Shown: positions 5,635-58,999 of the stretch, in pieces
Layout: each line of letters starts with the position of its first letter
Numbering within the stretch: the first letter of the stretch is position 1
From: Berberis thunbergii
Lineage: Eukaryota > Streptophyta > Magnoliopsida > Ranunculales > Berberidaceae
NCBI GenBank assembly: GCA_003290165.1
Contig: QNQO01000537.1
Span: 186,001 to 250,000, forward strand
Direction: 5' to 3'
Length of the DNA stretch: 64,000 bases
The notes under the pieces: generated by a model
What the model was told of the DNA's origin: nothing
The model's database searches: none
Seen by the model: only the letters and a program-made list of their open reading frames with translations
Position numbers and translations under genes: made by a program

Positions 5635-5693
5635 CACTAGTCTTCTTCTGCTAAACATACACTCAAACCCATAGTTTGCTTTGGCAAGACACA

Positions 5694-20371: not shown

Positions 20372-22111
20372 TGATTACGCCCAAACAATACGCGCGGTCA
20401 ATTGCAGTAAAGATTGGGGTGTTGATCCCACGAGGAAAAACGATATACAAAACAAGGTCAAGGAAGAAAAACTACGCGAAACTAAAGTTAAGAAATTCTA
20501 ACAAATATAAAGTAAGAAATTGAATTTAGTTTAATGAAAATTAAGTTTGGAAAAAATCACAAGGTTCCAAGAATCCCTCCTAGATTTTACGCGCCAACTA
20601 GTATTGATTCACTATGATGACTCAACTACGTGTTTCACATCCCAAACAACGTAATCGAAAAAATAGTCTTTTATGCATTAATATATCCTAATGTAAATGG
20701 ATTTTAGATTTCACTTTTTCTAGAAAGCACAAAGGTTGGTCATATGTGATGTCATAAACTTACAATATATTCGGAGATAATAACGTAATAAATGACGATC
20801 ACATATAACTAAGCTACCGGAATCAATTGATCTTTAAACATTCCACACATAAGAGAAGCGTGACTAAGCTTATATGGAGAAGAAAAGATAACCACCGGAA
20901 TAATAATAATCTACGAAGAAATTTATGAAATCTTTGTCACTAAAATAACATAAATTTCTATATTAAATAAAAGTGATAATCATTAAACAACATTATTCAT
21001 CGTGAAAGCTTAAAGCAAATCAAATACTAATTTAGTGCGTTACATCTAAGAGTTCACATCTTCGCCTTGTGTAAAGTTTAGTGACGCATGGTGTTGGTGA
21101 TGAAAGCAACAACGGAGGTGGAATTAATCGACATGGCAGCGCGTGGTAAATCAGGAATGCGCACACTGCTGGTGTGTGTCCACTGCTGCTCTACGTGTCC
21201 ACTCCCTGCTGTCCTGCTGCGTACTCTGCTGCTCTGGACACCGTGTTGGCTGCTGCTGGACCGACCTTCTCTTCTCCTGTATTGCGTCGTCGCTCCCCTC
21301 CTGCTTTTTTGTTCCAGACGTCCTCTTGTTGCAAAGAAAACAAATAATAATATATCATATTGGTTGTTGTCATCTTTTTGGTTAAAAAGCCCCCTTGCCC
21401 TAATTGGGCCCAAATTAGAAACCAAAATACTCATTCTATGTTGGTGGATCCCCAAGCCAAATCCAATTGGAAACAAAAAGGTGAGGCCCTTTTGTTTGGA
21501 TTATGTTTTAATAAAAGGAAAAATGGGTTTGGCTATGTTCATCCATATCACTTCTTTGTACCACCAAAATTCAAAACTAATTTCCTTCATTTTTCCTTTG
21601 GTTTTTGTAATCTTTGGCTTGAGCGTCTCCCGCTCCACTTCGTTAATTTGTCTATGAATTTCAAAATTCGCCACGCTAATGCACTTTTGACATTTAAACT
21701 CCAAATCCTACAAAAATACAAAAATAGAACAATTAAACTAAAATACACTAATCGAAACACTAACAAACATAAGTTAGGAGGTATATTATGTAATAATTAT
21801 GTGAATATAAGATACCCCCAAGCCTACATTTTCCTAGTCCTCGAGCAAAACAAAATTAAGAATAAAATCCTAACTCACTTTCATAGGAATCACGGTTGCA
21901 CTTACCTTAATGTGCAACAAGGCTTTAAACCCCTAGATTACCTCTAGTGGACGAGTTATAGTCTCGTGAAGGTTTCCAGAAATGTTTCCCCCAAACATTA
22001 CTGACTCAATAAAACAAAATCTATTTTTTAAAAACATAATGCAAAAACAAGGGTATTATCCTTTATTTTCCTCAGAGTAATTTTCTAATTGCTTAAAATT
22101 CAAGAAAAACA
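20372..22111 (-). repeat. 3' LTR of the second gypsy element (about 1740 bp)
   Basis: Plus-strand TGATTACGCCCAAACAATAC to CAAGAAAAACA is repeated at 38,764-40,475 with scattered substitutions and small indels. The ends are TG and CA. Open frames within it (such as 21,088-21,657) also occur in altered form in the other LTR and are not taken as genes. Confidence 0.85.
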
Positions 22112-23347
22112 ATAAACTAAAAATGTCACAATAGTATATCAATAGAGTATAATAATTTAATAGTATCTAAAGGTTAAATAAATTTCAGAATCATTTTCAA
22201 CTCGAAGTGTGTGTGTGAGAAACCTTATCAACATAACTCTTCGTCTCATAGTAAAGATGTGACGAGATAACCTTTAGAAAGTACGTTTTGAGCACAAATC
22301 TCTCATGTCACTCAGAGATTGGGCACTCAGTTTATATGTTAGAAAAATGATATAAATTATTGAAAATGCAAACGTCTCACATATAATATCATCATGAAAA
22401 ATGGAATTTTCAAAGAGTGAAATGAATATGATCTCATGGACAAGAATATTGATTACTTTTGAGAATGTTGAATCAAACACCATAGTTCTTGCCTATTCAA
22501 TCTCCACATCTATTAAACCAACTTTCACTTAAGATCAATTAGGTCTTTACTAGGTTATGATGGGGCTTGGATTATGGCAAACAATAATGGACAAAAAGGA
22601 TACAAGAATTTCCTGAGAATGGCTACACCCTTAAATAAACACATAGGGCATTGAAGAACAAATCAATGTTGTACACCATTAACTTTTTCTTCATTATTTT
22701 CTTTTGCAACTTTTTTTAACCCCTTTTTTCAACCTTTTTTTTTGTATGTTTTTCCCCATTGATACAATCCAACACTTTTACTTTGAAGGCGCATAAAATA
22801 TCTATTTTCAACTCTTTTTATTTGTCCATTCCATAAATATATCTCACCGTATACATTCTCGAAAAACTGGGTAAGGATAAAATAATAGAGGTATTACTCC
22901 TTGATTGGAGTAGGTATTGGGAATGACGATAACAAAGAGAAGGCTATTTAAAGGCTCAAAGGGCTGCAAATGGATATTTATTATTGGGTAGGCTAAAAAG
23001 CTAAAAAAACGGTTTAAAGAAAGAAATGCCTATATTACTTCATAAGTTCTAGTTAGTACTAGGACATCTCAACTAAATAAAACAAGAAGTTCTAGTGTAA
23101 AGATTCAATTTTTATGTTATTCATAAAGCAATCAATAAGAAAATCAAGAATAATGAGATCATCAACGAAATAATGCGGACTCAAGAAAAATCAGAGTGTA
23201 ATTAATAACCCTCAAGAAATAAAGAATGGCTCAAAAATCACACGGGTTAAGTCTCCACTATTATTCTAAGGTTTTCTAGTTCAATATCACACTAATCAAC
23301 TTCAAATCATGTTGACTTGGCTTATAGTGCATGAATAGTCGAGTTAA
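22112..23347 (-). other. 3' untranslated interior of the second gypsy element
   Basis: AT-rich sequence without recognisable coding potential. It belongs to the gypsy interior and continues at 32,526 on the other side of the CACTA insertion; TAA is present at both junctions. Confidence 0.5.
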
Positions 23348-23377
23348 CACTACACCAAAAGGGCTGATTAGCTACAC

Positions 23378-23480
23378 AGGGGTGGCCACGGTTCTAAACC
23401 GTTGGTGTGTTTGCCACGGCTAAAAACCGTGGCTATAGTGACCCACGGCTTAAAACCGTTGCAAATGTGCACGTGTGTTG
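23378..23480. repeat. Left subterminal palindromic repeats of the Pack-CACTA
   Basis: Successive units GCCACGGTTCTAAACCGTTGG, GCCACGGCTAAAAACCGTGGC and CCCACGGCTTAAAACCGTTGC are imperfect palindromes of about 20 bp. The same motif fills 32,171-32,520 at the other end. Confidence 0.75.
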
Positions 23481-23749
23481 CACGTGGACCTGTGGAGAAG
23501 TAGGTCGAATTCTGGCGGGCGAAATTTTGGGAAAAAAATTTGCTTCCCGCGTTCCCGCTCCATCTCCCCCTTTTCTCAACCCTTTGCTTCTCCATCTCCC
23601 GCTCCATCTCCCCCTTTTCAACCCTTTGTGAAAAAAACCCTAAAATTTCAAGGAGAGGGAAAGAGAGAAGGAGAAGGAGAAGGAGAAGGAAAGAGAGAGA
23701 AGTCGAGCAACCCAAGCAGTGTCTGTGTTTGTACAAGCAACAAAACACG

Positions 23750-24321
23750 ATGGGGTTTGGCCATCTAGCCATTCGAGCTTCGAGATCCTCCTCCTCCTTC
23801 GCAGCCTTCAATCGAGGAGTTTCTCTTCATCTGCCAATCACCATGGGGTTTGGCCATCTCTAAACTTTTTCCTTCAATTTAGGGTTTTATTCGTCAACTA
23901 GGATTTCCTTTCTTGTTATTGATTTGAGCCATCTTTTAATTCAATTTTTTATTTTATTTTATTTTATTTTATTTTATTTTATTTTATTTTATTTTATTTT
24001 ATTTTATTTTATTTTTTCAACTGTGAAATGATGGAATTGGTTTTGATCAGATGAGACGGCGAAATGGGAAAAGATAACATATCTGGGAATCGGTTCTTGC
24101 ACCATCATGGCATTCTACAATTTGTCCAAGGGTCATCCCCACTTTGAAGAGCCTCCGGTAAGTCTTTTACTAATTCTTTTCAATTGTATGACTGTGTTTC
24201 TTATTTTGGAAATGTAGCTAGCTCGTCTCTTTAACTTTGTATATTAATCATGACGTCGTCCGTTTGATGAATCTTGCAGGCATACCCTTATTTGCACATC
24301 AGGAACAAGGAGTTCCCCAGC
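23750..24321 (+). pseudogene. COX6A: Captured cytochrome c oxidase subunit 6a, partial, three exon pieces
   Basis: The mitochondrial inner-membrane subunit COX6a is recognised in two spliced pieces. One is 24,051-24,157 (ETAKWEKITYLGIGSC, then a membrane segment and SKGHPHFEEPP, ending at GTAAGT). The other is 24,280-24,321 (AYPYLHIRNKEFPS, also followed by GTAAG). A presequence-like piece (SRSFSSSANHHG, from 23,812) lies before a pentanucleotide-filled intron. It is not in frame with the nearby ATG at 23,750. The usual last exon (the GPDGLFE-type end) is absent. A downstream acceptor at about 24,620 opens a short tail IVEVPPKQIK and a stop, so a chimeric product is conceivable but unproven. 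Confidence 0.75.
23951..24016 (+). repeat. Microsatellite (ATTTT)n
   Basis: About 13 perfect ATTTT units lie within the intron of the captured COX6A fragment. Confidence 0.95.
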
Positions 24322-24871
24322 GTAAGTTTAGATTTCTATTTTTTTTTTTAATGTTTTAAGCTCATTGAAAATTGAAAACTTTTCATCTATTAAGCTCAAT
24401 ATTGTAATGGCCTACTGAGAATAAAATCTATTGAATTTGGGTACATGGTTGGTGCACTAAGTAGTATGATATGATAGAATTTTAAGTTAGATATCCAAAG
24501 TTTTGTGCTCCCAATTCTGCATGAATTCCTTAATTTCAATAATCTTGTGAAATAAAGCACCATTTCATGCTTTCATATATTTTTTTTCTTTAATATTACT
24601 TGTCCGCCATCTTCCCATAGATCGTCGAAGTACCTCCAAAACAAATTAAGTGAAAGATTATATAAAGTTAATATTTGCGGTTTGTTTGACCCAGTGTCAT
24701 CATTATCACCTGTGTAACAATGATATGCGTAGTCGGCTACACCTACATGTGTCCTTGTTGGACTCGTGTATGAATGTCAAAAACATCAACACTCAAAATT
24801 CTCACTACTTGGGATCCATGCAAATGGAGTGCATAGGTTTTCAAATGTACGATCATTCTACTATTTATATT

Positions 24872-25126
24872 GGAATTGAAAAGGCACCCCAGGTCTTCTT
24901 CTTCTCCTTCTCTATTACCCCTTTCTCTGTCTCTCTATTGCTTGGTTTGGTTTGGGTTCCATTTCTCTGTAAGTCGCAAATTGGGTTCTCGCATCCTCAT
25001 TTAATTTCAGAGGAATTGAAAAGGCACCCCAGGTCTTCTTCTTCTCCTTCTCTATTACCCCTTTCTCTGTCTCTCTATTGCTTGGTTTGGTTTGGGTTCC
25101 ATTTCTCTGTAAGTCGCAAATTGGGT
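24872..25126 (+). repeat. Exact 115-bp direct duplication of a PROSC-type exon end and following intron
   Basis: 24,872-24,986 and 25,012-25,126 appear identical (GGAATTGAAAAGGCACCCCA through AAGTCGCAAATTGGGT). A third, 48-bp partial copy is at 25,652-25,699, directly attached to the PROSC-like exon. The words encode (E/K)KA(P/L)Q followed by a pyrimidine-rich tract. Short segments have therefore been copied repeatedly within the captured region. Confidence 0.85.
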
Positions 25127-25330
25127 GATTTGATCGAATGGGTTAATTGGAATGTTGGAAGAGATGCAAACCCAGTGCTGGAAAGAAGGTTAGATCTTCT
25201 CTCTTTATTTATTTTCAAGTTTTAATTTTTTTAGGACTATTTGGGTATAATATTTTTGTTCTAATTGTTGTTCTTTGTTTCAGATTTTGGAGAAGTTGTT
25301 GAAGAGGGGTGGAAAGCTTAAAGGTTTTGT
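25127..25330 (+). other. Unidentified exon-like pieces
   Basis: WNVGRDANPVLERR (about 25,148-25,189) ends near a possible donor AAG|GTTAG. After a CAG acceptor at 25,283, ILEKLLKRGGKLKGFV continues. The pieces read as conserved-looking protein next to the PROSC fragment, but I cannot assign a parent gene. Confidence 0.3.
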
Positions 25331-25558
25331 CCTTGTCTCTCTCTCTCTTGTTCTTTCTCCACTGAATGTTTGTTTTCATGCTTTGTGCATTGCTTTTTGT
25401 TTAAAATTAGAATTTGGGTATATTTCAATTTGTAAAATTGATCAATCTGTACCCTTGGTTTTTTGGGGTTCTTGTTTAGTTGTTAAAGCTTAATGGGTTT
25501 TTTTTTTTTTGTATGAAAGTGATTTGATCTTGTTTGGGTTGTTTGTTTTTGTGATTAG

Positions 25559-25663
25559 AAGACCAAGCCATTCTCCCTCATTCGCCAAGTCTATGATGAT
25601 ATTGCTGGGCATCGATGTTTTGGCGAAAACTATGTGCAGGAGTTAATTAAAAAGGCACTCCAG
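25559..25663 (+). pseudogene. Captured exon of a PLP-homeostasis (YggS/PROSC family) protein
   Basis: The exon follows the acceptor GATTAG and reads KTKPFSLIRQVYDDIAGHRC and FGENYVQELIKKALQ, the conserved region around the PLP-binding lysine of YggS/PROSC proteins (SKTKP, GHRxFGENYVQE). Compared with the family there is an extra residue or two before AGHR. It is a single orphan exon of 35 codons; the rest of the barrel is absent, so it has no enzymatic or PLP-binding role by itself. Confidence 0.75.
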
Positions 25664-25899
25664 GTCTTCTTCTTCTCCTTCTCTATTACCCCTTTCTCTT
25701 GTCTAAAACCAAATGCATGGTTTCATTGATTTTATTAGGGTCAAGGTTCATTCCCATAATTCTTCATCATCTTCAAATGGTCGAATCATGTTAGCATGAT
25801 AAAGTAGAAATGGATCTTCATCCCACTCACATAAAGCCCTTTCATTTTTATTTGTTACTTATATCAATAGGACACATGTTAGCATGATAGAGTAGCATC

Positions 25900-27300
25900 G
25901 ATACAATTGGAATATATGAAATGGTTGAGGATCCGCATGTACTTCCTCAATATTTTTTCTCCTTTCTTATCAGAACTAAAAATTTTCAATGCATAGAGTA
26001 CAAAATACATCTATTAGCATGAATCCAATCTCTGCCTAATAAAGTTAAAAAATTAAGTGCACCATCTATGACAAAGAATGTTTTCTCTGAATGGTTTACT
26101 CCTAACTATTATTTCTAATGGCACAATTTTTTGGCCATCGTTTTATCTTTCCAATAATCCAGAGATAGTAATCCTGGTTGTCACTAACTCAACATCTTGT
26201 TTATTTATTTTCTTCGAAGTATTAGTAATAATGACTGATGCATCATTGTCTACTAATGCCATGTTTTAAAAGTTTTCCATTAAACCCTTTGATAAATAGT
26301 GGTTTTACATTTAACCATTTCTTGAGTTGGTTCTTCATAAGTATAAGGCAAGTTGGCCGAAGTGAAATAAAACTATGGAGTAGTCACCTCTTCACTCTCA
26401 TTCAATCAAATCTCTAAATCATCTGAACCAGCAGGAATGTTATCCATTTCCTTAATTCTCCTTGGCAGCAAATGTCTAGCTAATGTGGTAGCCATGTTTT
26501 TCCAAGTCAATGAGCATATCTAGCAACAAATCATTTTGTAAACCTGTGTTTACATATTCCTTTATTTTTCCAAGTTCCATGTACTCCTCCATGTCATCTC
26601 TAATAAACCTCGGATTTGGTTTATTAGAAACAGTCTGCACATAAAGTATATTTTTTTTTATATTCCTCCTGTAAGTCCATGTTAGTGCTGAACTGGGAGT
26701 AGGAGATTTCAACTCAGTGACACTCCATTTGGTTTAGGCTTCACAAACTTGTGTTTATCCTTAATAGATAATGCTTGCTTTCTTTGGACTATCATTGGAT
26801 CCTGCAAAATAAATCAGTCAAGTACACCCAGTATTAATCCTTTGGGTGGATGTTTTGTAGTTCCAGGCCTGTTTATTAAGGTTTTTTGCCTTTGATTTTG
26901 CTCTAATTTGACTTCATGCAATCTAGGCCAGCAATGAAGCCCATGCTCAGTCTTTCAGAAATAGGTTTGTTGAACTTAGTTTCCCTAGGCAGGACTAATT
27001 GTGGTTCATTAACTTTCATTTTCTTGTGACTTTCTTCACCTGGGAATTCACTGCCACAAGCTACACATTAGTGTTGAACACAAATGTTGGTTCCTTTAAA
27101 TACTCCCTTGTTGGACTCATGATTTACATTACCAAGATTCACACGCATTTCATTGGCCGTTTGGAATGTATCCTTGACAATTCCCATTGTTGAGTCTGAA
27201 AACTTGAGTTTTTCCTTTTTTCAGCAACTCTTGAATTTTGTTCCTAGAATCAAAACATTCATTTGCAGTGTGAGACCAGGAATCATATCATATCATACAC
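25900..27300 (-). pseudogene. Degenerate retroelement gag/protease-like relic inside the Pack-CACTA
   Basis: On the minus strand near 27,290-27,220, SHTANECFDSRNKIQELLKK resembles the gypsy Gag end with a decayed zinc knuckle. ALVDNDASVIITNTSKKINK near 26,265-26,200 resembles the protease active-site region (usually LVDTGAS). An open stretch of 78 codons at 26,476-26,712 lies between. Many stops are present. It suggests that a retroelement fragment is part of the captured DNA. The assignment is tentative. Confidence 0.35.
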
Positions 27301-28107
27301 ACAGTCACTGACACCCATAATTGGTATGATAGGCTGGTGGTCAAATTTGATTCATATTGGTATATGTATGTCATATTTGATTCAAGTTTAGCACTAACTA
27401 TAGATATGTAATTGCTACATGCATGTTGTTCTGGTTCTCATTTTCCTCCCTTGTCTTTGCACACAGTTAAGCAACTTCCCATCTATCTATTTAAACATTT
27501 ATGCCATTTGACATGTTTTTGAGAGTTTACATATTTGCATTGTAATAGAAATCTTTCCACCTCAATGTTTACCAATATAAATGATCATATCTTTCCACCA
27601 TTTGACCTATACACCATATTTCGGATTCGAAAGCAAATTTTCTTGTAAATTAAATTTTATTTTACTTCTTTTCTTTAATTTTTTTTTTGCAACTATGCAA
27701 TCAATTTAAAATATAAAATTATTATGGTTTTTAGTAACTCTTGTTAATGAAAGAAAAAAAAAACATATTGTTATGGTGAACTTAAGTGAACCTCTGTATG
27801 CCCTAGTGTGTTTTTATGCAGGTGTTTTTATGGAAGTGAAGTGAATTTCTGTGTTTTTATGCGGTAGTATCGTGGCAATATGGTGTTTTGACTCTATATG
27901 TTAATTTGGGTTGTTGAGTTGCCTTTTGAAATTTTAAAGAGCCGGAGAGCAAGGCCATTCACTCTAAAGCTAGATGTTGTTTTCTGCATTTCTGCATTGT
28001 GGTAAAGTGATTATGGTTCTTGTTTACATGCGTTTGTTGTCTAGATTTATAGCATAATTACGATCAGTTGCATTTAGGGATTCTTGACTGTTGTTATGTT
28101 AACATAG

Positions 28108-28234
28108 GTTGCTTATGTCTTGGGCCAGCTTCAGAACAAAGCTACTAATGCTGCACTTTCCAGAGTGCTCAAGGATGTTGAAGAGCATCCTATGGTTAGA
28201 CATGAAGCTGCTGAAGCACTTGGATCAATTGCAG
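28108..28234 (+). pseudogene. DOHH: Captured exon of deoxyhypusine hydroxylase
   Basis: The exon is bounded by ACATAG and GCAG|GTAAC and encodes [17 protein letters not shown] and [18 protein letters not shown]-like repeat units of deoxyhypusine hydroxylase, the di-iron enzyme that completes hypusine on eIF5A. One His-Glu metal-binding pair (RHEAAEALG) is present. The other metal ligands and HEAT repeats are absent. At 42 codons it is an orphan exon, not a working enzyme. Confidence 0.8.
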
Positions 28235-28817
28235 GTAACAGTTGATATATATATATATTTTGTCGCACATACTTCCAGGAAGCTAGTATCCATTCCTACA
28301 ATGTGCTATGTCATGCTTCAATAATTTTCATAGCTGAATAAAATGTTCACTGCTCACTTGGCAAAAGGTGAGTATACTGGTGCAAATTGTGCTAAATTAG
28401 CACATATTACAATTCTTTGACTAGAATATGCTACTAGGCATGATTCACTTCGGTTTAGACCAATCATTCTAAAAATGGGCATGCCTCTGAAAACTTATTG
28501 TATAATATTTCAGCTGCTTCAGTAATTGCTTCTCCCTGTTGTTAGACTTTTTATCCTATACTATTATACATTTAATTTGAAAAATTGTAAATTAATGATT
28601 ATAATGGATCTTAATTCTTAAACTACAATCATTGCACGAATATACACATAACACGCATACGCAGAAAGTTAGTACAAATATAATGCAAGGAGAATAAACA
28701 AATTTGTTGAGATGACCAATATCCAAGTTTTACCTTTGATAGAATACCTACAGTGTGTTGCATTGTTAATTTCTTTCATGCATATGGTTTTAACTAGCTT
28801 TACAATCTTTGAAACAG

Positions 28818-28925
28818 ATTGGTCCTTTGCGTTGTTGGCCAGGGGTGTTATGCCTTTCGAGGTCGATTGGAGACATGGATGTTGGCGAATTTATAGTTCC
28901 TATACCCTATGTTAAACAAGTTAAG
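28818..28925 (+). pseudogene. Captured exon of a PP2C-type protein phosphatase
   Basis: After the acceptor AAACAG the 36-codon exon reads IGPLRCWPGVLCLSRSIGDM, DVGEFIVPIPYVKQVK, followed by GTGCGT. This is the CLSRSIGD..VGEFIVPxPYVKQV block of plant PP2C phosphatases, where the Asp of SIGD helps bind the metal centre. The usual PGG is PGV here. The other catalytic motifs are missing, so this is a fragment. Confidence 0.8.
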
Positions 28926-30094
28926 GTGCGTGTCTTTTTCTTGACTATACATTGATTTTCTTGGTTGATGATTTTCGATTTGTCAAGACCACAATTCTAT
29001 TCTTGAATTCTAGTTATTTTATTTTATTTTTATATTTTAATCTTAAACAAGATTTAATTAATGAAAACAGTAACTCGGTGAAAGGGGAATCACTGAGAAT
29101 CTGAGCAAATTCCTTTTATTTGTAAGTGACCGAATTGTATTTAAGTGAAAGGGCAGACCGTGTTAATATATGAAACTCCTTTTTATGTGTTAAAATTACT
29201 CAAAGGTATTATCAGCTTTACATTGTTTGCTTTAGTGTGCATCCTATCCACTCAATTGCTATAATAAATTACTGCATGCCCTCCTTTCAGACATTTAAAT
29301 CACATTTATATGACAGCTTCATAATTTGCTCTGATTACAAGAATGCCATGCATTGCCATTTTGTCTAAGATGAATGTCCTTTTATTTGGTATTTCTGCTA
29401 CTAAATGGTGTTGGCGTTAGATGAACTCATCGAATCTAAACTAGGTGTGGTATGCTGCTAAATATTGATTAGGTACCTGAGGAATTATTACATATGTGCA
29501 TTTTAATTTGGTACCTGAGGAATTATTACAGATCAGCCTTTCCATATGTGCATTTTAATTTGGGATAGCATATTTTATCTTTAACAGTAGCTTTTTCTTT
29601 TTGTTCTGTCTTTTGCTAGCTGACCATCTCAGTCACTAGCTTGTATTTTTTTTCTCTGATCTCCCCTTTTAATGAAAGTCCAATTTTATTGATTAAAAAG
29701 ACTATTATTGTTATTTTTTTCCAAGTGTTTTGGATTTTCATCATGAAAGAATGCATACTTTGGCTGTACCTGTAGTTATAGACACTTTTGACCTCATCAT
29801 TCTGTATTGCTTTTTGTGGACAGCTTTATATCCATTACATGTGTCTGTCAAGAGTGGAGAACTAACTGTTTACTTTGGAGAGGCTACTGGGCTATGCTCT
29901 GGTCATCTTTTAAATAGCTTTTGAATGACAAATAAATAGCATAAACAGATGATAATCTTATACTTTGTTTTGATAGTCTTGTCATTCATTGCGTTGGTTC
30001 AGTACATTGGATCATCTATGACACAACTTAATCATGTGTTTCTGTCATATCTTGGCAATATATCATTTTTAAGTTTATTCAACTCCTCGAACAG

Positions 30095-30208
30095 GCTCTT
30101 ATGTACCCACTTCTGGTTGCGTGTAAATCAATAAGTAATTTGCGCAGAGCAGCAGCTCAAGAAGAGGTTGACAAGGTTCGGCAGCATAGTGGTGTACTTG
30201 TCGATCAG
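30095..30208 (+). other. Captured exon, parent gene not recognised
   Basis: It is bounded by AACAG and CAG|GTAAAC and stays open for 38 codons: [18 protein letters not shown] and [20 protein letters not shown]. It is highly exon-like in splice sites, length divisible by three and amino-acid composition. I cannot link it to RecA or any other family with confidence. Confidence 0.45.
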
Positions 30209-30290
30209 GTAAACATCAAATAGTATGTTCCTTTACTTCCTTATTTTTATATTATTGGTTTATCTATATTACTCTATTGTTGTTGGTATT

Positions 30291-30352
30291 CACTACACCA
30301 AAAACCCCCATTAGCAACGGTTCTATGCCGTGGGCGCAAGCCATTGCCACAT
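30291..30352 (+). mobile_element. Internal CACTA left terminus
   Basis: CACTACACCAAAAACCCCCA and the next bases (to CCGTGGGCG) match the inverted right end of the Pack-CACTA (32,525 inward) with one mismatch in 46 bp, a much closer match than the outer left end offers. It is preceded by ATT. It therefore looks like the original partner of the right end, defining a 2235-bp inner element (30,291-32,525) that carries the RecA fragment. Confidence 0.8.
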
Positions 30353-30565
30353 ATAGGTAATTGGAATCTCCAGACATGTATAGGTAACCTTCATAGTAGT
30401 GAGACACATGCAACTTGAATTTGGAATTTTGGATCCGACATTCATGGTGTAATGAAAGCTATCATCTGAGTCTTAATGTGATATATGCTATGAATCACTT
30501 GATTTATCAATGCTAGTAATCAAAGCGTATTTGTTCAAGTTGTGACTTATCTATCTGAATTTCAG

Positions 30566-31703
30566 GTAGCTGCCCTTGTACCTAAAGGTGAACTTGACGG
30601 TGAAATGGGGGATGCACATATGGCAATGCAAGCAAGGCTAATGAGCCAAGCACTTCGCAAGTTGAGTCATTCCTTGTCTATGTCACAGACCATTTTGATC
30701 TTTACAAATCAGGTAATTTATTGGGTATTGTTACCAGATATAAAACCTAATATTGGAATTAAAAAAAAATTCAACTTTAACAAAATGTATTTCTAAGCAA
30801 TATTAGAATTGAAAAGGATTACATACTTCTCTGTGTAGATGAGATTAATGTAGGGATATGTTCTATAATTTGGATCAGTGGTGAACTATTTACTTTGTAA
30901 AGAAGAGAGAAGGAGGGGAGGTTGTTTACTCTAAAAGCTAGAGCTTCTTGGATCTCTATAAAGCCATTATCTGTTTTCCTTTTAATTTACTATAATTTAA
31001 TTTTGTGATTATGCATTTTCTTTAATAGAATAGCCTATGCATAAAATGTATTTTGTGTTTTTCAGATAAGATCAAAATTGTCCACATTTGGATTTGGTGG
31101 TCCCAGTGAAGTGACGTCAGGGGGTAATGCTTTGAAGTTCTATGCATCAGTCCGGTTGAATGTCAGAAGGATTGGGATGGTCAAAAAAGGAGAAGAGGTA
31201 AAACTAAGCTCCACTGAAATACAATGGAATACTATATGGGTATAGCATAGCATTTTCTATTAGTATGACTGATGTATGTTTTGATTTCATTTTTGTTGTT
31301 CAAGACCGTTGGAAGCCAAGTTCTTGTGAAGATTATTAAGAACAAGCATGCTCCGCCATTCAAGACTGCACAGTTTGAGCTTGAATTTGGCAAGGGGATA
31401 AGCCGTGAGTCTGAACTTGTAGATCTGGGGACCAAACATAAGTTCATTATAAAAGGCGGAGGGGCTTTTTACAGCTTTAATCGCCAAAATTTCCGTGGTA
31501 AGGATGCTCTCAAAAAGTTTTTGGCAGAGAATGAGAGTATCCGGGAAGAACTGACTGAGAAGCTTCGAGAAAAGCTAATGCACACTGAGACAGAGAAGGC
31601 AAAGGAGTCTGAAACAGAAAGTCCTGATGAAGAGCCAAAGGAAGTGGTGATTGTCTCACCAGATGCGGCTGATGAGGATGCAATTGCTGCTGTGGAAGCA
31701 TGA
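30566..31703 (+). pseudogene. Captured 3' half of an organellar RecA homolog
   Basis: Three exons with good splice sites (30,566-30,712; 31,066-31,197; 31,305-31,703) encode [78 protein letters not shown] and GGAFYSFNRQNFRGKDALKK, ending in an acidic tail and TGA. This is the mitochondrial/plastid-type bacterial RecA that promotes DNA strand exchange. The frame is intact throughout the three exons. The 5' exons with the Walker A loop, and Walker B up to the VDS preceding VAALVP, are absent, so an ATP-dependent recombinase cannot be made. The open frame suggests recent capture. Confidence 0.85.
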
Positions 31704-32170
31704 GTGTTTCAAAATTTCCAAAGTTATATCTAATCAAGGCCCATACATTTGGTTCTTGACAAAGTCTGATTGAATGTGGAAGGAGACGTGAGTGGAAATA
31801 TTCCCGTGCTACCCAGGTTTACATTTTCTGGACACTTGGCTCAGGTGCTATGAATTACCATTCGAATCCATTAAATGCAAGTTGACTGCAAATGCGTATA
31901 TTGATGAGCAAATGGGTTGTTGGATGATGTAAGTTTTGTGGCATTGCACCTCTGAGTGTCTGATGTATGTAGGGGGCTGTTTGTTATGTTGGTTTCAGCT
32001 TCGTTGTTATAACATGTTTCAGACAAATTTCACATTTCAGTAAATATATCTGTATTGATTACATACAGTATGCAATATCTAGTAACATTCATTCAATATT
32101 ATATACTACGACACACATTCATGCTTTTAGAGTTCTATCAGTGTAGGAGTGGAAATCAAAAAAAAAAAAA

Positions 32171-32520
32171 TTGCCACGGTTTTAAATCGTGGCTAACTGT
32201 TGCCACGGCTTAAAACCGTTGCTACTTAATTAGACACGGTTTAAAACCGTTGCTAATATCTACACCTTGTCATAGCTTAAAACCGTGGCTATTTTTGCCA
32301 CGGCTAAAAACCGTTTCTATGCTTCTTGCAACGGTTTAAAACCGTGGCTAAATTCTGAAAATCACCACCCCTATTCAAGCATAAAACCGTTGCTAAACAT
32401 TTAGCAACGGTTTTGAACCGTTACAAATAATTTCGCGACGCCCCTGTAGCCCACGGCTCTTAGCCGTGGCAATGGGTTACGCCCACGGTATAGAACCGTT
32501 GCTAATGGGGGTTTTTGGTG
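32171..32520. repeat. Right subterminal palindromic repeats of the Pack-CACTA
   Basis: About ten units of the form GCCACGGCTTAAAACCGTTGC or its inverse occur, ending in the TIR at 32,525. These are presumed transposase (TNPA-like) binding sites by analogy with En/Spm. Confidence 0.75.
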
Positions 32521-32525
32521 TAGTG

Positions 32526-33232
32526 TAAAAAGTCTCATGAAATACATCTAACATAAGGATATTATCAAATATCATGATTTCCACTAATATAACTGTGACA
32601 TGTGCTAGTATGTGTTTTCTCAAAATAAAGGCAACAAAAATATTCTCTAAAATAAAATAAAAATACTCAAAACCCTTTTTTCACTTTTTTTTTTTAAATT
32701 CACCATGAGTTCAGATTTCAAATGCATTTTCATAAAGATTGTACACAATTACCGTAATCATCTAAGTATTCAATGGAGATTGAGTAGAATACAAAAATGA
32801 CTCGATTTAATTGTAAAATACGTTTTAAGCTCAAAGATTTTTGAAAATTGCACAAAAAATCCAATAAACCACACCCCCAAACCTAAACCAAACATTGTCC
32901 TCATTGTATAAAATAATAATCATGACAAATGAAGGAAAAAGAAGAGAGGGGGGTTAGAGTGATATTACCATGGTGAAGCTTTACCAATTTCAAATAGACA
33001 ATGTCCTCACAGTCACCAAAATATAAGAAAAACATACCGACGGGAGAAAGGAACATATGGGATGAAGGGCTCCAATTGACTCCAGTAGCAACACCTAAAA
33101 TAACCTGAAACACTAAAAGAAAAACATAAAAGCAAAAACCTAAACTAAAATAAAAAATAAAAAATAAAAAAATGAAAAATAAAAATAAAAATAAAAACCT
33201 AAACTAAAGATAGGTGGAGAACATCAAATCAA
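32526..33232 (-). other. Gypsy interior downstream of pol
   Basis: AT-rich noncoding sequence follows the integrase on the minus strand. It belongs with 22,112-23,347. It includes a stretch of A-rich simple sequence (33,150-33,205). Confidence 0.4.
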
Positions 33233-36200
33233 GTAGACAGGGGCAACCAGAGATATCTCTTCTGGCACCTCTACCCGCTCCACATAGTGCTTCAAACGTT
33301 GTCCATTTACTATAAATAATCTCCCATCTATTGGATCTTCAATTTCTATGGACCCATTGGGAAAACTTGTTTTACCATGAATGGGCCCGTCCATCTCGAT
33401 CTTAGCTTGCCAGGATGAAGATGAAGGCGTGAGTCATAGAGATAGACTCGTTGGTTGGGCTCAAAATGTTTCCTCAGAATTTGCTTATCATGAGCTGTTT
33501 TCATCTTCGCCATGTATATTCGGGAATTGTCATAGGCATCATTCCGCAACTCCTCAATTTCAGCCAACTGAAGTTTCCGCTGAATACCTGCATCATTAAG
33601 ATCAAAGTTAGTGCTTTTTACGGCCCAATAAGCGCGATGTTCTAACTCAACAGTTAAATGACAGATTTTTCCATATATAAGCCGATATAGAGACATCCCG
33701 ATAATTGTCTTATAAGCGATACGGTAAGCCCAAAGTGCATCAAGAAGGCGCAAGGACCAATCCTTCCTATCAGGATTCACCATCTTCTCGAAGATTTGTT
33801 TTACTTCTCGATTTTCCAACTCAGCTTGGCCATTTGTCTGCGGATGATAGGCATTGACAACCTTGTGATGAACTCCATACCTGCGCAACAAAGCTTCAAA
33901 AGAGCGATTACAAAAATGAGTCCTCTGATCACTAATAATGGCTCGTGGTGTACCGAAATGGGATAGAATGTGTTCTTTGATAAACTTGACAACAGTGTTG
34001 TTGTCATTGTTTCGGCATGCCATAGCCTCAACCCATTTGGACACATAGTCCACTGCAAGCAAAATATACAAATATCCAAAGGAATGTGGAAAAGGTCCCA
34101 TAAAATTAATCCCCCAACAATCAAATATCTCAATGACAAGGATGGGGTTAAGGGGCATCATGTGTCCCCGAGACAGTGCACCTAACTTCTGGCATCTATC
34201 ACAAGAACGACAATAATTGTTAGTGTCCTTAAACAATGTAGGCCAATATAATCCAAACTGTAAAAATTTTGTAGCGGTCTTTTTCATAGAAAAATGGCCT
34301 CCACAAGCTGCACTATGACAAAAATGTAAGACACTTTCAATCTCACCTTCAGGGATACAACGCCTCATGATTTGGTCGGGGCAATACTTATATAGATAAG
34401 GATCATCCCAATAAAAATTTCTTACCTCGACTAAAAATTTGCGCTTATCTTGAGCACTCCATGATGATGGAACTTTGCCGGAAACCAAGTAATTAACAAT
34501 GTGTGCATACCTTGGTACTTGAGTGACGGCGAATAGGTGTTCATCAGGGAAGTCATCACGGATGGGTGGGCCATTGGAAGAGTCAAAGAACTCCAAAAGA
34601 GACAAGTGATCTGCCACAACATTCTCGACCCCCTTCGTATCCTTTATAGTTAGATCAAATTCATGCAGAAGTAAATCCATCTAATCAATCTTGCCTTAGC
34701 ATCCTTTTACAAAGAATGAACTTAAGAGCCGCATGGTCTGTAAAAACAGTGATAGGTGTACCAATCAAATAAACACGAAATTTATCTAAAGCAAAAACTA
34801 CAGCTAGCAATTCTTTTTCAGTAGTCGAATAATTCTTTGAGCATCATTAAGTGTTCAACTGGCATAGTAAACAACAAATGGATTCCCTTCAGTTCGTTGT
34901 CCGAAGACTGCCCCCACAGCATAGTTGCTTACATCACACATTATCTCAAATGGTAAAGTCCAATCTGGTGGTTGCATGATGGGGGCAGAGGTGAGCCTAT
35001 CAATGAGTGTTCGGAAGGCGTCCTCACACTCTTGTGTCCATTGGAACACGACATCTTTGACCAGGAGGTTGCTTAATGGTCTAGAGATGGCAAAAAAATT
35101 ATGTATGAACCTCCTATAAAAACCCGCATGCCTTAGAAATGATCTCACATCCTTGACACTTTTAGGTGTAGGTAATTTAGAAATCAATTCAATTTTAGCT
35201 TTATCAACCTCGATTCCTTTATTAGAAACTATGTGTCCCAGAACTATTCCATAGGGAACCATAGAATGACATTTTTCCCAATTAAGCACCAGACCCTTCT
35301 CTTCACATCTACTTAAAACAACCTTCAAGTAAAGTAAACATGAATCAAAGGAATCACCAAAAACTTCCATATATTTTTCAACCATGTCACTAAAAATACT
35401 CATCATGCATCGCTGAAAAGTAGCCGGTGCATTACACAAACCAAATGGCATACGCCGAAAAACATAAGTACCAAAAGAACATGTGAAAGTGGTCTTATCC
35501 TGATCCTCTAATGCAATCTCAATATGATAATATCCTGAATACCCATCTAGAAAGCAATAGAAAGAATGACAAACTACTCGCTCTAAGATTTGGTCTATGA
35601 ATGGAAGTGGTAAGTGATCCTTGCGAGTGACAGAATTAAGTTTCTTATAATCAATGCACATGCGCCACCCTGTAACTACCTTAGTAGGAACAATCACCCC
35701 CTCATCATTAGTCACCATTGTTATTCTCGATTTCTTGGGAACTACTTGAGTTGGACTAACTCATTTGCTATCAGAGATGGGATAAATGATGTCTGCATCT
35801 AGCAATTTTAAAACTTCCTTTTTCACCACCTCTTTCATAGTAGGGTTAAGTCGTCTTTGAGGATCTCTACGGGGGTTAGCTCCTTCTTCTAAGTGGATCC
35901 TATGAAAACATATTAAGGGGCTAATACCTTTAATGTCAGCTATAGTCCAACCTAATGCAGATTTGTGCTCATGTAACATATTAATCAATTCTTCTTCTTG
36001 TGAGCTATCAAGCACGGAAGAAATAATAACAGGAAAGGTATCACCTGGTCCGAAGAATGCATGTTTAAGTCCCTCAGGCAGTGGAGCTAGGTCAACTTTC
36101 GGAGTTTCCACAGTGGATGGTTGTGGTTTCTTTTTTTCCTTTGGCAACTCCTCAAAGCATGGTTGCCATTGTCGCCCTCCTTTATCCTTTAACCCTGAAA

Positions 36201-36800
36201 CAACGAAAATATCAAAAGCATTGTCAGGATAAAGTGAATTCTCAAAATTAGAAATAGAAATGAGGTACTCTAAAGTTTCAGAATCTGCGCTCAGGAGCGC
36301 CTCCTCTGATATCAGCGTGTCTATCATGTAGGTATGATGACACTCATCATCATCATGTGGTTGCTTGCTAATATTGAATATGTTGACCTCCAGAGTCATG
36401 TTCCCAAAAGACAGCTTCATTAGACCGTTCCTGCAATTGATAAGAGCGCTAGCTGTGGCAAGAAAAGGTCTACCTAAAATAATCGGAACTGTAGACTCCA
36501 TATTAACCGCAGAATGAGTATCTAAAATAAGAAAGTCGACAGGATAGTAAAACTTATCAATCTGAAGCAAGACATCCTCGACTATTCCTCTTGGCTTCTT
36601 AATCGATCTATCTGCCAATTGTAGTACAACGGATGTGGGTTTAATCTCTCCTAGACCCAGTTGCAAATAAATAGAATATGGCATCAGATTTACACTTTCC
36701 CCTAAATCCAACAAGGCTTGGCCGAACTCATGAGTCCCAATCTGGCAGGTGACTGTAGGACACCCTGGATCTTTGTACTTGGGTGGTGTCCTCTGCTCAA
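33233..36800 (-). pseudogene. Gypsy pol: protease, reverse transcriptase, RNase H and integrase, inactivated
   Basis: On the minus strand the order is protease (ALLDLGESVNLMPYSIY), RT (GWRMCIDYKKLNS, FCFLDGYSGYYHI-like YCFLDGYSGYYHIEIA, RRMPFGLCNAPATFQRCM), RNase H and integrase (H2C2 zinc finger with CRSCDRC, then the core). Several lesions are visible. A TGA replaces the usual Trp near 35,757. The RT catalytic block with the Asp pair is deleted (EVF joins GDSFDSCL near 35,365). Frame breaks occur near 34,810-34,870. In integrase the first catalytic Asp is Asn ([10 protein letters not shown]); the second Asp (SDQRTHF) and the Glu ([10 protein letters not shown]) remain. A frameshift at about 33,350 precedes the C-terminal end. 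It cannot move by itself. Confidence 0.9.
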
Positions 36801-37549
36801 TCACCGCACTTACCTGTTCTATCAAGAAGGCAGTTTTCTTGACATGATGTTTCATCTTGATAGTGCATAGATCCTTGATGACCCTCGTATAAGTTGGTAC
36901 CTGTTTAATCACATGCAACAAAGGTAAGTTAATTTTAACCTGTTTCAAGTGTTCTAGAATCTCACCATGCATTTCTAATTTCTTTCCAGTAGGTCGTAGT
37001 GCTTGAGGAAAAGGAACTGAAACTGGAATGTTCTTGTTGGGCTCATCCTCAGGGATGCTCTCCTTTGCACTTGGGGAGGTGCCTATAGTCAGGGACAAGC
37101 TTGACCCGTCTAAAATCTTACCACTCCGAGTAGCGATGGCATTAACCTCTTTGACATTCTGAGAGTCTGAAGTAGAGGTTTGTGCCATAAGTTGGCCCTT
37201 TGGATTTGCTTGAGGCTGTGACGAAAATTGGCCCCGTTCTTGTACTGTTAATGAACTTGTCAGCTTGGTTATCTGGCCTTTGATCTCTTTGTTCTCTTCT
37301 GCCAATTGTGTCAATGCAACCTCAAATTTTTGATTAGTTTTACCTTGTGCCTCTATAAATGCATGCAATGTGTCTGATAAGGAACTTCTGTTAGATTGCA
37401 CATTGTACGGAGGTGCAGGGTATGACCTAGGTGGTTGTGCCTGTGAGTGTGTAGGTTGGTCTGCCTCGGACCTCCAGCCAAAGTTAGGGTGATCTCTCCA
37501 GCCAGAATTGTAAGTGTTAGAGAATGGTGAATAAGGCTTCTTGTACATC

Positions 37550-38592
37550 CCTAAGGCGTTAAATTGTTCATCATAAACCCCTCTCATCTCAGTCAAGGTT
37601 GGGCAATCCTGTGCGAAGTGTTCAACTCCCCCGCATATAAAACAGGCGTCCTGTAGCTCAACTATGGCAACAGTATGTGTGGGCCTACCATCCTTGGTCT
37701 TAAGTTCCTTTAACTCCCTAGTTACTCTATCCAATTGGGCTATAAGGCTATCCTCTTCCCTAAGTTGGTAAACTCCAGCTGGGCGTGTTCTATCCGTGCT
37801 CTCAGTAGCACTTGGACCAGTCCAAGTATGAGCCTTTTCAGCCAAGTCATTCAGGTACTCAATGGCTTCGTCAGGGTCCTTTTGCAAAAACTCTCCATTA
37901 CACATGCAAAAACTCTCCATTACACATCATCTCAACGAACTGACGTTCTCTACTGGTGAGCCCCTCATAAAAATAACTGACTAAGTGCCAACTCTCATAC
38001 CCATGGTGTGGGCATGTATTCAAAAGATCCTTGAACCTTTCCCATGCTTGATATAATGTCTCGCTATTCTTTTGGGTGAAGGAAGAAATTTGTTTCTTTA
38101 GAACGTTGGTTTTGTGGTGAGGAAAGTATTTATTAAAAAATGCTTGGGTCATCTCCTCCCACGAACCTATAGACCTTGGTCGCAAAGAGTATAGCCAACT
38201 CTTTGCTTTTTCCTTAAGGGAAAAAGGAAAAAACCTTAGTCTAACCGAGTCTACAACCTCAACTCTGTTGTGAAAAGTTGCACAACTTCCTCGAATTCCC
38301 TAATGTGAACATAAGGATTCTCACTCTCTAGGCCATGAAAAGTGGGTAATAATTGTATCATACCCGGCTTAAAATCTAGCTTGGGTGTACTTAGTGCAAA
38401 CATGATACATGATGGAGTAGCAGTGCGCGTGGGGTGGAGATAGTCCTTTAGCGACCGAACATAGTCATCTTCGTGATTACTCATGGTGTTGGAATTAGAA
38501 GTAGAACTTAATTTGGCCTCAATGTGAATTTGTGGGTGTTCTAAATTTGGGATCCTAATTAGCCTCCCTAAGTGGTCTCTATTCCAACTCAC
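37550..38592 (-). pseudogene. Gypsy gag with CCHC zinc knuckle, frameshifted
   Basis: The minus strand from ATG 38,592 encodes SLKDYLHPTRTATPSCIM, LLPTFHGLESENPYVHIREF, then after a frame change RFFPFSLKEKAKSWLYSLRP, NKYFPHHKTNVLKKQISSF and a CX2CX4HX4C knuckle (CFICGGVEHFAQDC, near 37,640). One frameshift lies near 38,255. A second comes from an exact 22-bp tandem duplication (37,883-37,904 and 37,905-37,926). Downstream, gag continues into protease and RT in one frame. Confidence 0.9.
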
Positions 38593-38739
38593 TCCCCCAA
38601 AGTTTTTTCTTGCAATTTTTTTAGAAATAAAATTAAAATTAAACTGGACCTAAAACCTAAAAATAGAATAAAATAAAATAAAATAAAACAATAAGCAAGA
38701 AAGATAATACTCGAAACCTTCTTTGTAGAATGTCGCTTG

Positions 38740-38763: not shown

Positions 38764-40475
38764 TGATTACGCCCAAACAATACACGCGGTCAATTGCAGT
38801 AAAAATTTGGATGTCGATCCCACGAGGAAAAGCGATTTACAAAACAAGGTCAAGGAAGAAAAACTACGCGAAACTAAAGTTAAGAAATTCTAACAAATTT
38901 AAAATAAGAAATTTTATTTTGTTTAATGAATATTAAGTTTGGAAAAAATCACAAGGTTCCAAGAATCCCTCCTAGATTTTACGTGCCAACTAGTATTGAT
39001 TCACTATGATGACTCAACTACGTGTTTCACATCCCAAACAACGTAATCAGAAAAATAGTCTTTTATGCATTAATATATCCTAGTGTAAATAGATTTTAGA
39101 TTTCACTTTTTCTAGAAAGCACAAAGATTGGTCATATGTGATGTCCTAAACTTATGATATATTCGGAGACAATAACGTAATAAATGACGATCACATATAA
39201 CTAACCTACGGGAATCAATTGATCTTTAAACATTCCACATATAAGAGAAGCGTGACTAAGCTTATTTGGAGAAGAAAAGATAACCACCGGAATAATAATA
39301 ATCTACGAAGAAATTTATGAAATCTTTGTCACTAAAATAACATAAATTTCTATATTAAATAAAAGTGAAAATCATTCAACACCATTATTCATCGTGAAAG
39401 CTTAAAGCAAATTAAATACTAATTTAGTTCGTTACATTTAGGAGTTCACCTCTTCGCCTTGTGTAAAGTTTAGTGACGCATGGTGGAGGTGACGAAAGCA
39501 ACAACGGAGGTGGAATTCATCGACTTGGCAGTGCGTGGTAAATCAGCAATGCGCACACTGCTGCTCTGCGTGTCCACTCCATGTTGTCCTGCTGCGTACT
39601 CTGCTGCTCTGGACAGCGTGTTGGCTGCTGCTGGACAGACCTTCTCTTCTCTTGTATTGAGTCGTCGCTCCCCTCCTGCATTTTTGTTCCTGCCGTCCTC
39701 TTGTTGCAAAGAAACAAATAATAATATATCCTATTGGTTGCTGTCCTCTTTTTGGTTAAAAAGCCCCCTTGCCCTATTGAGCCCAAATTAGCAACCAAAA
39801 TACTCATTCTATGTTGGTGGATCCCCAAGCCAAATCCAATTGGAAACAAAAGGGTGAGACCCTTTTGTTTGGATTATGTTTTAATAAAAGGAAAAATGGG
39901 TTTGGCTATGTTCATCCATATCACTTCTTTGTACCACCAAAATTCAAAATTAATTTCTTTCATTTTTTCCTTTGGTTATCTTAATCTTTGGCTTGAGTGT
40001 CTCCCGCTCCACTTCGTTAATTTGTCTATGAATTTCAAAATTGCCATGCTAATGCACTTTTGACATTTAAACTCCAAATCCTACAAAATAGAATAATTAA
40101 ACTAAAATACACTATTCGAAACACTAACAAACATAAGTTAGGAGGTCTATTATGTAATAATTATGTGAATATCAAATACCCCCAAGCCTACATTTTGCTA
40201 GTCCTCGAGCAAAACAAAATTAAGAATAAAATCCTAACTCACTTTCGTAGGAACCACGGTTGCACTTACCTTAACGTGCAACAAGGCTTTAAACCCCTAG
40301 ATTACCTCTAGTGGACGAGTTATAGTCTCGTGAAGGTTTCCAGAAATGTTACCCCCAAACATTACTGACTCAATAAAACAAAATCTATTTTCTAAAAACA
40401 TAATGCAAAAACATGGGCATTCTCCTTTATTTTCCGCAGAGTAATTTTCTAATTGCTTAAAATTCAAGAAAAACA
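38764..40475 (-). repeat. 5' LTR of the second gypsy element (about 1712 bp)
   Basis: This is the mate of 20,372-22,111, starting TGATTACGCCCAAACAATAC on the plus strand and ending CAAGAAAAACA. The first base of divergence from the left LTR's surroundings is at 40,478. Confidence 0.85.
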
Positions 40476-40610
40476 ACAATGATTAGTGGTGTATTCATTT
40501 TCGTATTGCTGGGTGAAGTAAGTATTGTTGGGTTCACATCAATGTCTTTGAGGTTGAAGAAGATGATGATTAGTGGTGTATTCATTTTCGTATTTCTTCT
40601 ATTTTAGATC
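40476..40610 (+). pseudogene. PPO: PPO-like C-terminal tail next to the gypsy LTR
   Basis: 40,532-40,573 reads VHINVFEVEEDDD and TAG, matching the end of the PPO KFDV exon (RIDLFEVEEDDE at 256-864; ADLFEVEDDE at 7624). Sequence upstream of it, where KLVVTLVPRLG should be, is missing. A 29-bp word starting ATGATTAGTGGTGTATTCAT occurs at 40,479-40,507 and again at 40,566-40,594, so the stop codon region and 3' UTR are duplicated across 87 bp. It may be the lost end of the relic at 12,622-13,069. Confidence 0.6.
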
Positions 40611-45459: not shown

Positions 45460-45479
45460 CACTACAAAAAAATGGAAAT

Positions 45480-46110
45480 CAGCGACGGCTAAAAACCGTC
45501 GCTGAATGAGCCAAAACCGTCGCTAAGAGGATTCAGCGACGGCACACCAACCGTCGCTATCCCGTAGCTGCATTTATCGTCGCTATTTGATTCAGCGACG
45601 ACACAATAGCCGTAGCTAATTAGCCACGGCATAAAACCGTCGCTAAAGTGTAAACTACCCGTAGCTAACAGATTTTTTTTTAAGAAAAAATTTAATATTT
45701 TTTATATTAGCGACGGCAAAATACCGTCGCTAATTGATTTTTTTTTAAATTTAACATTTATTTATTTTAGCGACGGTATTTTAGCCGTAGCTAACTGATT
45801 TTTAAAAAAATAATTAAAATTTTTTTATTTTAGCGACGGGAGTTTGGCCGTGGCTAACTGATTTTAAAAAAATATATATAAAATTTTTTATTTTAGAGAT
45901 GGCCTTTTAGCCGTAGCTAACTGATTTTTAAAAAAATATATATATAAGTTTTTTTTGTTTTAGCGACGGCCTTTTAGCCGTAGATAACTGATTTTAAAAA
46001 AAAAATTTAATTTTTTATTGTAGCGACGACATTTTGGCCGTGGCTAACTGATTTAAAAAAAAAAAAATTTGTTTATTTTAGCGACGGCCTTTAAGCCGTG
46101 GCTAACAAAA
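45480..46110. repeat. Subterminal palindromic repeat array at the left CACTA end
   Basis: At least ten units such as AGCGACGGCTAAAAACCGTCG and TAGCGACGGCCTTTTAGCCG recur, from about 45,700 with a period of about 60-65 bp, spaced by A/T-rich spacers (CTGATTTTTAAAAAAATATA). Confidence 0.8.
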
Positions 46111-49100: not shown

Positions 49101-49120
49101 CAAAACACGAACCTTTTAAG
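46111..49120. other. CACTA interior with one exon-like piece and a hAT-end fragment
   Basis: Most is AT-rich noncoding sequence. At 47,578-47,736, after a TTTCAG acceptor, an open stretch encodes GIDDIKLFQTNLICQTVDIL and KNRILQATNRVELLLQK. It reads like a host exon but I do not recognise it. It runs directly into a G-rich fragment (47,740-47,835) ending TGCCCACCCCTA, the inverted form of the hAT-like terminus at 50,209. Confidence 0.35.
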
Positions 49121-49129
49121 CTAGCAATG

Positions 49130-49830
49130 TGTAGTGCATTGCAGTGCAGAAGGTGGTGAAAGCTCACACTGGACTGCGGTTTGGCTGGACTGCAGACACG
49201 CGTAACATTGCAGTCCAGGTGGTGAAAGCTTGGCTGGACTGCGGTTTGGCTGTACAGTCCGCACTCTGCAGCACAGACAGCACTGTGGTCTGCGTAGACA
49301 GAGTGCGATGCGTGCTTCTGCTGTTCGTTTCAGGCGTAGCAGGGCGGAGATTGAAGTCTGCTGGGAAACAGGTTTGGTTCGCTTGCAGGACCCCAAGACA
49401 GGGTGCGATGGTTTTCTAGCTTGGCAGCCAGAGTGCGATGCTGACAGAGTCAGCATTCTGCGGCACGCGCTGTTACAGCGCCAGTGTCTACATTGCTGCG
49501 ATTCAGAGGTCGTGCGGATAAGGGAATGCGGCGTAGCGGAGCAGACGCGTGTCACATTCCGCACTCTGCGCACAGACAGCATTGTGGTCTGCGTAGACAG
49601 AGTTGCTTCTGCTGTACGTTTCAGGCGTAGCGGGGCGGAGATTTACGTCTGCTGGGAGACAGATTTGGTTCGTTTGCAGGACCCCAAGACAGGGTGCGAT
49701 GAATTTTCAGCTTGGCAGCCAGAATACGCTGCTGACAGAGTCAGCGTTCTGCTGTACGCGCTGTTACAGCGTCGGTTTCTGGCTTCTACATCGCTGCGAC
49801 TAAGAGTTCGTGAGGATAAGGTGGGTGCTG
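49130..49830. repeat. GC-rich 301-bp tandem duplication
   Basis: Two units starting near 49,260 and 49,561 share CAGACAGCAYTGTGGTCTGC, GTTTCAGGCGTAGCRGGGCG, CAGGACCCCAAGACAGGGTG and GCTGACAGAGTCAGCRTTCT. GC content is far above the surroundings. A 285-codon plus frame (49,230-50,087) spans both units, but the differences between units are mostly amino-acid changing and the protein resembles nothing known, so I do not call a gene. Confidence 0.7.
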
Positions 49831-49980
49831 TCCAGGTTCCTGGGCGCTGGTTATTTGGGATGAGTTCGTCTGGTGCTTTAAATATGCAATGGACTTCACG
49901 ACAAGTTTTGCTTTTAATTTTTTCTTTGTGTTTTATACGGGTAAAGTCGTCACGTACCCCCATACGTAGCGGTTGTAAGG

Positions 49981-50050
49981 AACACATATACTACACGCAC
50001 ACATATACTACACGAACACATATAGCGCACGAACACATATACTACACGCA
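49981..50050 (+). repeat. Minisatellite, about 16-bp unit
   Basis: About four units of ACACATATACTACACG with small variants are present. Confidence 0.85.
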
Positions 50051-50208
50051 CAAAGAAATAGAAATACGCATTCATGCAATCAAATGAAGGAATGCACAAG
50101 TGTGAACAAAGAACACAATATAAAGCTTCTTTAATTTATTTTAAATTTTATTAACTATTGAAAGTAGTAAGAGATGGGAGATTATGTATAAACATGCCTA
50201 TCTAGTGT

Positions 50209-58960: not shown

Positions 58961-58999
58961 TTTTTTTCAAATATACACTTATGGACGGCATAAAACGTA

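Follow-up and report, generated by a model that had tools for sequence, protein, structure and literature searches.

We analysed a stretch of 64,000 nucleotides of Berberis thunbergii (contig QNQO01000537.1, positions 186,001 to 250,000; referred to here as the window, whose own numbering is used throughout), in which a preliminary description made from the sequence alone had placed a CACTA transposon carrying fragments of host genes. The element spans 23348 to 32525 (9,178 bp), and the boundaries originally proposed for it hold. On the left, TTAA directly precedes CACTACACCAAAA, which begins at 23348, and on the right, TTTTGGTGTAGTG ends at 32525 and is directly followed by TAA. The outer ends form a perfect 13-nt inverted repeat of the form CACTA...TAGTG, as in the CACTA (En/Spm) superfamily, and the TAA on either side (23345 to 23347 and 32526 to 32528) corresponds to the 3-bp target-site duplication of that superfamily. 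Repeated subterminal motifs, another property of the superfamily, are present at both ends. Palindromes of the type CCACGGCTTAAAACCGTTGC (family D1 of our repeat scan) occur three times at the left end (23385 to 23464) and nine times at the right end (32173 to 32504), giving an outer left terminus at 23348 to 23466 and a right terminus at 32173 to 32525, both annotated on the plus strand. The CACTA termini, the matching TAA duplication, and the palindromic arrays at both ends are all as the preliminary description had given them.

The exact terminal 13-mer occurs three times in the window, at both ends and at 30291, all inside the element. The degenerate palindrome motif has 31 matches in the window compared with 0.18 expected, some of them outside the element. 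Without gaps, the outer left and right ends agree at the 13 terminal positions and at 29 of 60 positions overall. When gaps were allowed, 81 of 102 aligned positions were equal, with an alignment score of 84.5 compared with a maximum of 46 among 300 shuffled sequences in which the first 13 bases were preserved, and the homology of the two ends thus extends beyond the 13-nt terminus. A search of viral contigs for the exact terminal 30-mer gave no matches, a result confined to viruses and with no bearing on the host.

Between the termini lie pieces of six host genes in the order COX6A, PLPBP, deoxyhypusine hydroxylase (DOHH), PP2C, TOR, and RecA3 from left to right, all on the plus strand. If the orientations of the genes were independent, the two-sided chance of this uniformity would be 1 in 32. 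COX6A is represented by exon 2 at 24051 to 24157 (PDB 7jro_f, E value of 3.5e-15) and by exon 3 of 14 codons at 24280 to 24321, which was placed by joint alignment to 7jro_f (E value of 2e-29). A probable first exon lies at about 23750 to 23850; it was recognized by eye, with its end aligned jointly, and its frame is broken and its donor site unclear. Also by eye, a 17-nt direct repeat was seen around this exon, at 23750 and 23843. The exon at 25559 to 25663 belongs to the PLPBP/YggS family (PDB 1ct5/1b54, E value of 0.0013; 1w8g, YggS, E value of 0.0039) and has a two-residue insertion relative to its best match. The DOHH exon at 28108 to 28234 matched PDB 4d4z with an E value of 4.1e-18. Of 2,327 candidate relatives 2,225 passed, and the best 120 of these 2,225 were used; among the matches listed, 117 of the 119 DOHH sequences compared are identical to the exon at 34 to 38 of 42 residues. 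The PP2C exon at 28818 to 28925 shares 89% identity over 36 residues with a Pfam PP2C domain protein of Hevea (P0010), and its own matches to Pfam (E value of 0.075) and PDB (E value of 0.2) are weak.

The exon at 30095 to 30208 is derived from TOR kinase. It is related to plant TOR proteins and matched yeast TOR2 with an E value of 4.2e-4. At an E value of 1e-3 or lower, 404 of 406 candidates were accepted as relatives; among the matches listed, those that are named are plant TOR or uncharacterized plant proteins, and 119 of 120 are identical to the exon at 36 or 37 of 38 residues. RecA contributes its last three exons, at 30566 to 30712 (Pfam RecA, E value of 6.3e-18), 31066 to 31197 (Pfam RecA, E value of 6.7e-10), and 31305 to 31703, the last of which retains the native stop codon (Pfam RecA_C, E value of 1e-10; relatives of RecA homolog 3). 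For this gene, the 8,000 candidates sharing most words were scored, 7,967 passed, and the best 120 were used. Among the matches listed, the closest are proteins named mitochondrial RecA homolog 3 or unnamed relatives, and the best six, at 79 to 82%, come from Stephania (three), Coptis, Macleaya, and Thalictrum. Short of proving it, this pattern suggests a host close to the Ranunculales that is absent from the matches listed. The preliminary description had reported at least five host genes, namely COX6A, a PROSC/YggS-family protein, DOHH, PP2C, and an organellar RecA, together with a sixth exon left without a name. The five identities are supported by PDB, Pfam, and the relatives retrieved, the sixth exon can now be assigned to TOR, and the shared plus-strand orientation extends to all six genes.

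The repeat scan also detected a feature absent from the preliminary description, two identical 115-nt copies on the plus strand, 140 nt apart, at 24872 to 25126. The first 55 to 60 nt of this repeat recur at 25645 to 25704, at the end of the PLPBP exon, pointing to a local duplication at the time of capture or later. Two candidate small exons, near 25160 to 25190 and 25284 to 25320, had no Pfam match. A minus-strand retrotransposon remnant that had been noted by eye at about 25750 to 27290 was supported neither by Pfam nor by tblastn with the retrotransposon frames of the window itself, and it was rejected. Among the literature titles listed, with most subscription journals outside the coverage, the combination of COX6A, PLPBP, DOHH, PP2C, TOR, and RecA3 was not named.

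All six reading frames of the element were compared with Pfam, with X placed at stop codons, and no transposase family was detected at an E value of 0.1 or lower, in agreement with the preliminary description. At the same threshold, the plus-strand matches were RecA, RecA_C, and HEAT_2, the last of which corresponds to the DOHH exon, and the only minus-strand match was DUF3388 with an E value of 0.1. The element encodes no transposase and is therefore non-autonomous, and with captured fragments of six host genes, it has the composition that defines Pack-TYPE elements. An autonomous partner was sought elsewhere in the window with Pfam, and no transposase was found at an E value of 0.01 or lower in the three plus-strand frames of 45460 to 55061 or in the minus-strand frames of 52000 to 63699 (one frame) and 52001 to 60401 (two frames).

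The element lies within a long terminal repeat (LTR) retrotransposon, which the preliminary description had missed. Direct repeats at 20372 to 22115 and 38764 to 40479, both on the minus strand and 93.6% identical, are taken as the LTRs of one retrotransposon, the former being the 3' LTR in its reading direction and the latter the 5' LTR. The Kimura two-parameter distance between them is 0.049 (41 transitions and 41 transversions over 1,715 sites). Minus-strand open frames at 33349 to 38649, taken from the list of open reading frames and named by eye, correspond to gag-pol. The CACTA element sits between the last pol frame and the 3' LTR, indicating that it was inserted later than the retrotransposon. 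On the plus strand, opposite one of the minus-strand retrotransposon frames, there is a match to the plant small nucleolar RNA snoR71 at 37998 to 38104 (54.6 bits, with a cutoff of 40).

The locus is thus very probably a non-autonomous Pack-CACTA element that holds parts of both exons and introns from six host genes in one orientation and resides inside an LTR retrotransposon. The cargo was presumably copied from genes that still exist elsewhere, and the 9,178-bp unit would have moved as a whole by means of a CACTA transposase made elsewhere. Several observations weigh against this interpretation. The PP2C and PLPBP identities rest on 35 to 36 residues each, and the matching TAA by itself has a chance of about 0.02, the probability that two random local 3-mers agree. 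There is also no clear target duplication at the LTR ends chosen and no matching copy of the CACTA flanks elsewhere in the 64-kb window, and the contiguity of the flanks is consequently inferred from the LTR pair. However, it is extremely improbable that the locus is instead a native gene cluster or an assembly artifact. The good state of the exons would fit such an origin, and nothing else does, whereas the locus consists of short pieces of exons from six unrelated genes that are enclosed by CACTA ends and TAA and placed between the LTRs of a retrotransposon, which argues against it. The position between the LTRs in particular is not that of a native gene cluster.

The splice dinucleotides of the captured exons are kept, as the preliminary description had noted for most splice sites. 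In the nine exons read in the element, AG was found at 9 of 9 acceptors and GT at 8 of 8 donors, so that all 17 dinucleotides examined are intact. Joining COX6A exon 2 through to the RecA stop with DOHH skipped gives eight exons that are open over 383 codons, of which 365 run from the first ATG onward. If DOHH is retained, the open frame covers the final 347 codons, and DOHH is read out of frame. The kept splice dinucleotides and the 383-codon frame make a single chimeric RNA possible. If transcription were initiated at the left, splicing could yield chimeric RNAs that end at the RecA stop. The captured coding sequence has also decayed little. Near-invariant positions, defined as those conserved at 97% in the RecA set (n = 120) and at 95% in the DOHH (n = 119) and TOR (n = 120) sets, are changed in the element at 1 of 101 positions for RecA, 0 of 28 for DOHH, and 1 of 36 for TOR. 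For RecA, 43 of 120 relatives deviate as much or more at such positions. In TOR, the change is from V to E, and none of the 120 relatives deviates at near-invariant positions.

These properties might suggest that a functional chimeric gene has already arisen from the captured exons, transcribed from the left, with DOHH skipped in splicing, and maintained by purifying selection. The 17 intact splice dinucleotides, the eight exons open to the RecA stop, and the change of only 2 of 165 near-invariant positions would all be expected of such a gene. However, the phases match at four gene-gene junctions with a chance of about 0.03, a value that relies on general exon phase frequencies, and DOHH was omitted from the frame after the fact; the phase matches are therefore weak evidence. 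The first exon of COX6A, as judged by eye, seems unable to start the frame, and the substitution in TOR falls at a position that is invariant in 120 relatives. None of the 360 relatives fetched combines two of the captured genes in one protein. Recent capture explains the low decay without any constraint, and on the sequence evidence we consider a working chimeric gene quite unlikely.

The third copy of the terminal 13-mer, at 30291, marks an inner terminus that the preliminary description had overlooked. Positions 30291 to 30350, on the plus strand, are an inverted copy of the right end at 32466 to 32525. The two are identical at 57 of 60 positions, the first 36 perfectly, and the likeness ends beyond this stretch. 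The inner terminus is flanked on its left by ATT and not by TAA. Of the two left ends, this inner one resembles the right end more closely, but over a shorter stretch. The 57 of 60 identities of the inner end and the 81 of 102 of the outer end in the gapped alignment indicate a relationship of each left end to the right end. How the element was assembled may be recorded in the inner end, and two routes, which we regard as about equally likely, were considered.

By the first route, a 2,235-bp RecA element (30291 to 32525) and an upstream element would have inserted close together, and a transposase would have acted on the two outermost ends, mobilizing both elements together with the inner left end intact. 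The inner copy has the terminal C of CACTA as its very first base and is oriented inward, as a left end would be, and its close identity to the right end is in keeping with such a fusion. The ATT beside it would fit a target duplication whose partner was left behind, and a capture model of this kind is in print: PMC8903248 credits a fusion model to Catoni et al. (2019) and allows for deletion of the right end of the upstream partner. However, the inner site holds no more than 60 nt of the right end, with a single palindrome, and the outer left end shares homology with the right end as well, over a greater length. The upstream partner has left no right end, as a search of the element for a fourth terminus with the 13-mer and up to two mismatches found none. 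We regard fusion as a reasonable possibility, with chances somewhat below even. By the second route, the element would have a single origin, its cargo having accumulated through recurrent gap repair or template switching, with the inner terminus as a copy of the right end made inward in the inverse direction during a switch. Compared with the outer left end, the inner stretch is more similar to the right end, and it breaks off inside the following palindrome; the element also contains other local duplications, namely the identical 115-nt repeats and the 17-nt repeat seen by eye near COX6A exon 1. In contrast, this route would need chance to explain why the copy starts at precisely the terminal base, unless copying began at the cut end. 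We place the probability of template switching just short of even. The stretch at 30291 to 30350 is the kind of trace of an inner terminus that a fusion could leave, but a template-switch copy would look alike.

A more specific form of the fusion route is that the locus preserves an intermediate of gene capture in steps, in which two neighboring Pack-CACTA elements were mobilized as one and which consists of nested, potentially competent transposons of 9.2 and 2.2 kb that share a right end. We hold this only tentatively, and consider it rather more doubtful than not. If it is true, the RecA cassette could be released on its own. Should the inner end be a genuine second left end, the locus would allow a direct test of the fusion model, which predicts that a 2.2-kb RecA element exists in free form and that either left end can serve for excision.

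CACTA elements of the Tpn1 family of Ipomoea are also reported to capture host genes. The statement of the preliminary description that gene capture by CACTA elements is known in several plants is borne out by precedents in soybean (PMC1947982), Chenopodium (PMC8978399), and grapevine (PMC2528002), and capture by Pack-TYPE elements in general is treated in PMC13317346. The closest precedent found is Tgm-Express1, a 5.7-kb CACTA element of soybean that is made up of intron and exon portions from five unrelated host genes and for which 12 distinct spliced transcripts are described, all of which start at the F3H gene that harbors it (PMC1947982). The Berberis element resembles it in combining exon and intron parts of multiple unrelated host genes in a CACTA element. 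However, the genes and the host are different, and the Berberis element is larger (9.2 kb), lies in a retrotransposon rather than in the intron of a gene, and has an inner terminus. With six genes in one orientation, it exceeds the five fragments of Tgm-Express1 by one, and none of the 17 splice dinucleotides tested is lost. In contrast to these six genes, the cases compared from grapevine (Cactavine-5, PMC2528002) and Chenopodium (PMC8978399) carry either part of a single gene or two fragments from the same superfamily.

Like Pack-CACTA and other Pack-TYPE elements (PMC8903248), the Berberis element is a non-autonomous DNA transposon with captured coding DNA. The same paper proposes the fusion of neighboring insertions as a Pack-TYPE capture route, and it works through examples from PIF and Mariner elements that are a few hundred bases long. 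That model has the inner ends removed by deletion or altered by mutation, whereas an inner end of 60 nt is preserved in the Berberis element. The host seems to be an early eudicot, and among the papers listed on CACTA elements with Ranunculales or gene capture, none, judged by title, describes such an element in that group. The element is a rich addition to a known kind, and the inner terminus is its unusual part.

A second and larger CACTA-like unit of another family occupies 45460 to 63674, with CACTACAAAAAAA at the left and an imperfect TTTTTTTGTAGTA at the right. Arrays of the GCGACGG/CCGTCGC type lie near both of its ends, and the bases on its two sides do not agree as those of a target duplication would. 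The ends of this unit are not secure, since the 12-mer with one mismatch occurs three times in the window compared with 1.03 expected. Within the unit, the minus strand at 53687 to 53764 encodes a zinc finger like that of ESCO/CTF7 acetyltransferases, perhaps a captured exon (Pfam PF13878, E value of 1.6e-5, 25.1 bits compared with a cutoff of 27). Near the left edge of the window, open frames at 220 to 861, 5655 to 6898, and 7046 to 7621 resemble, by eye, tandem polyphenol oxidase genes.

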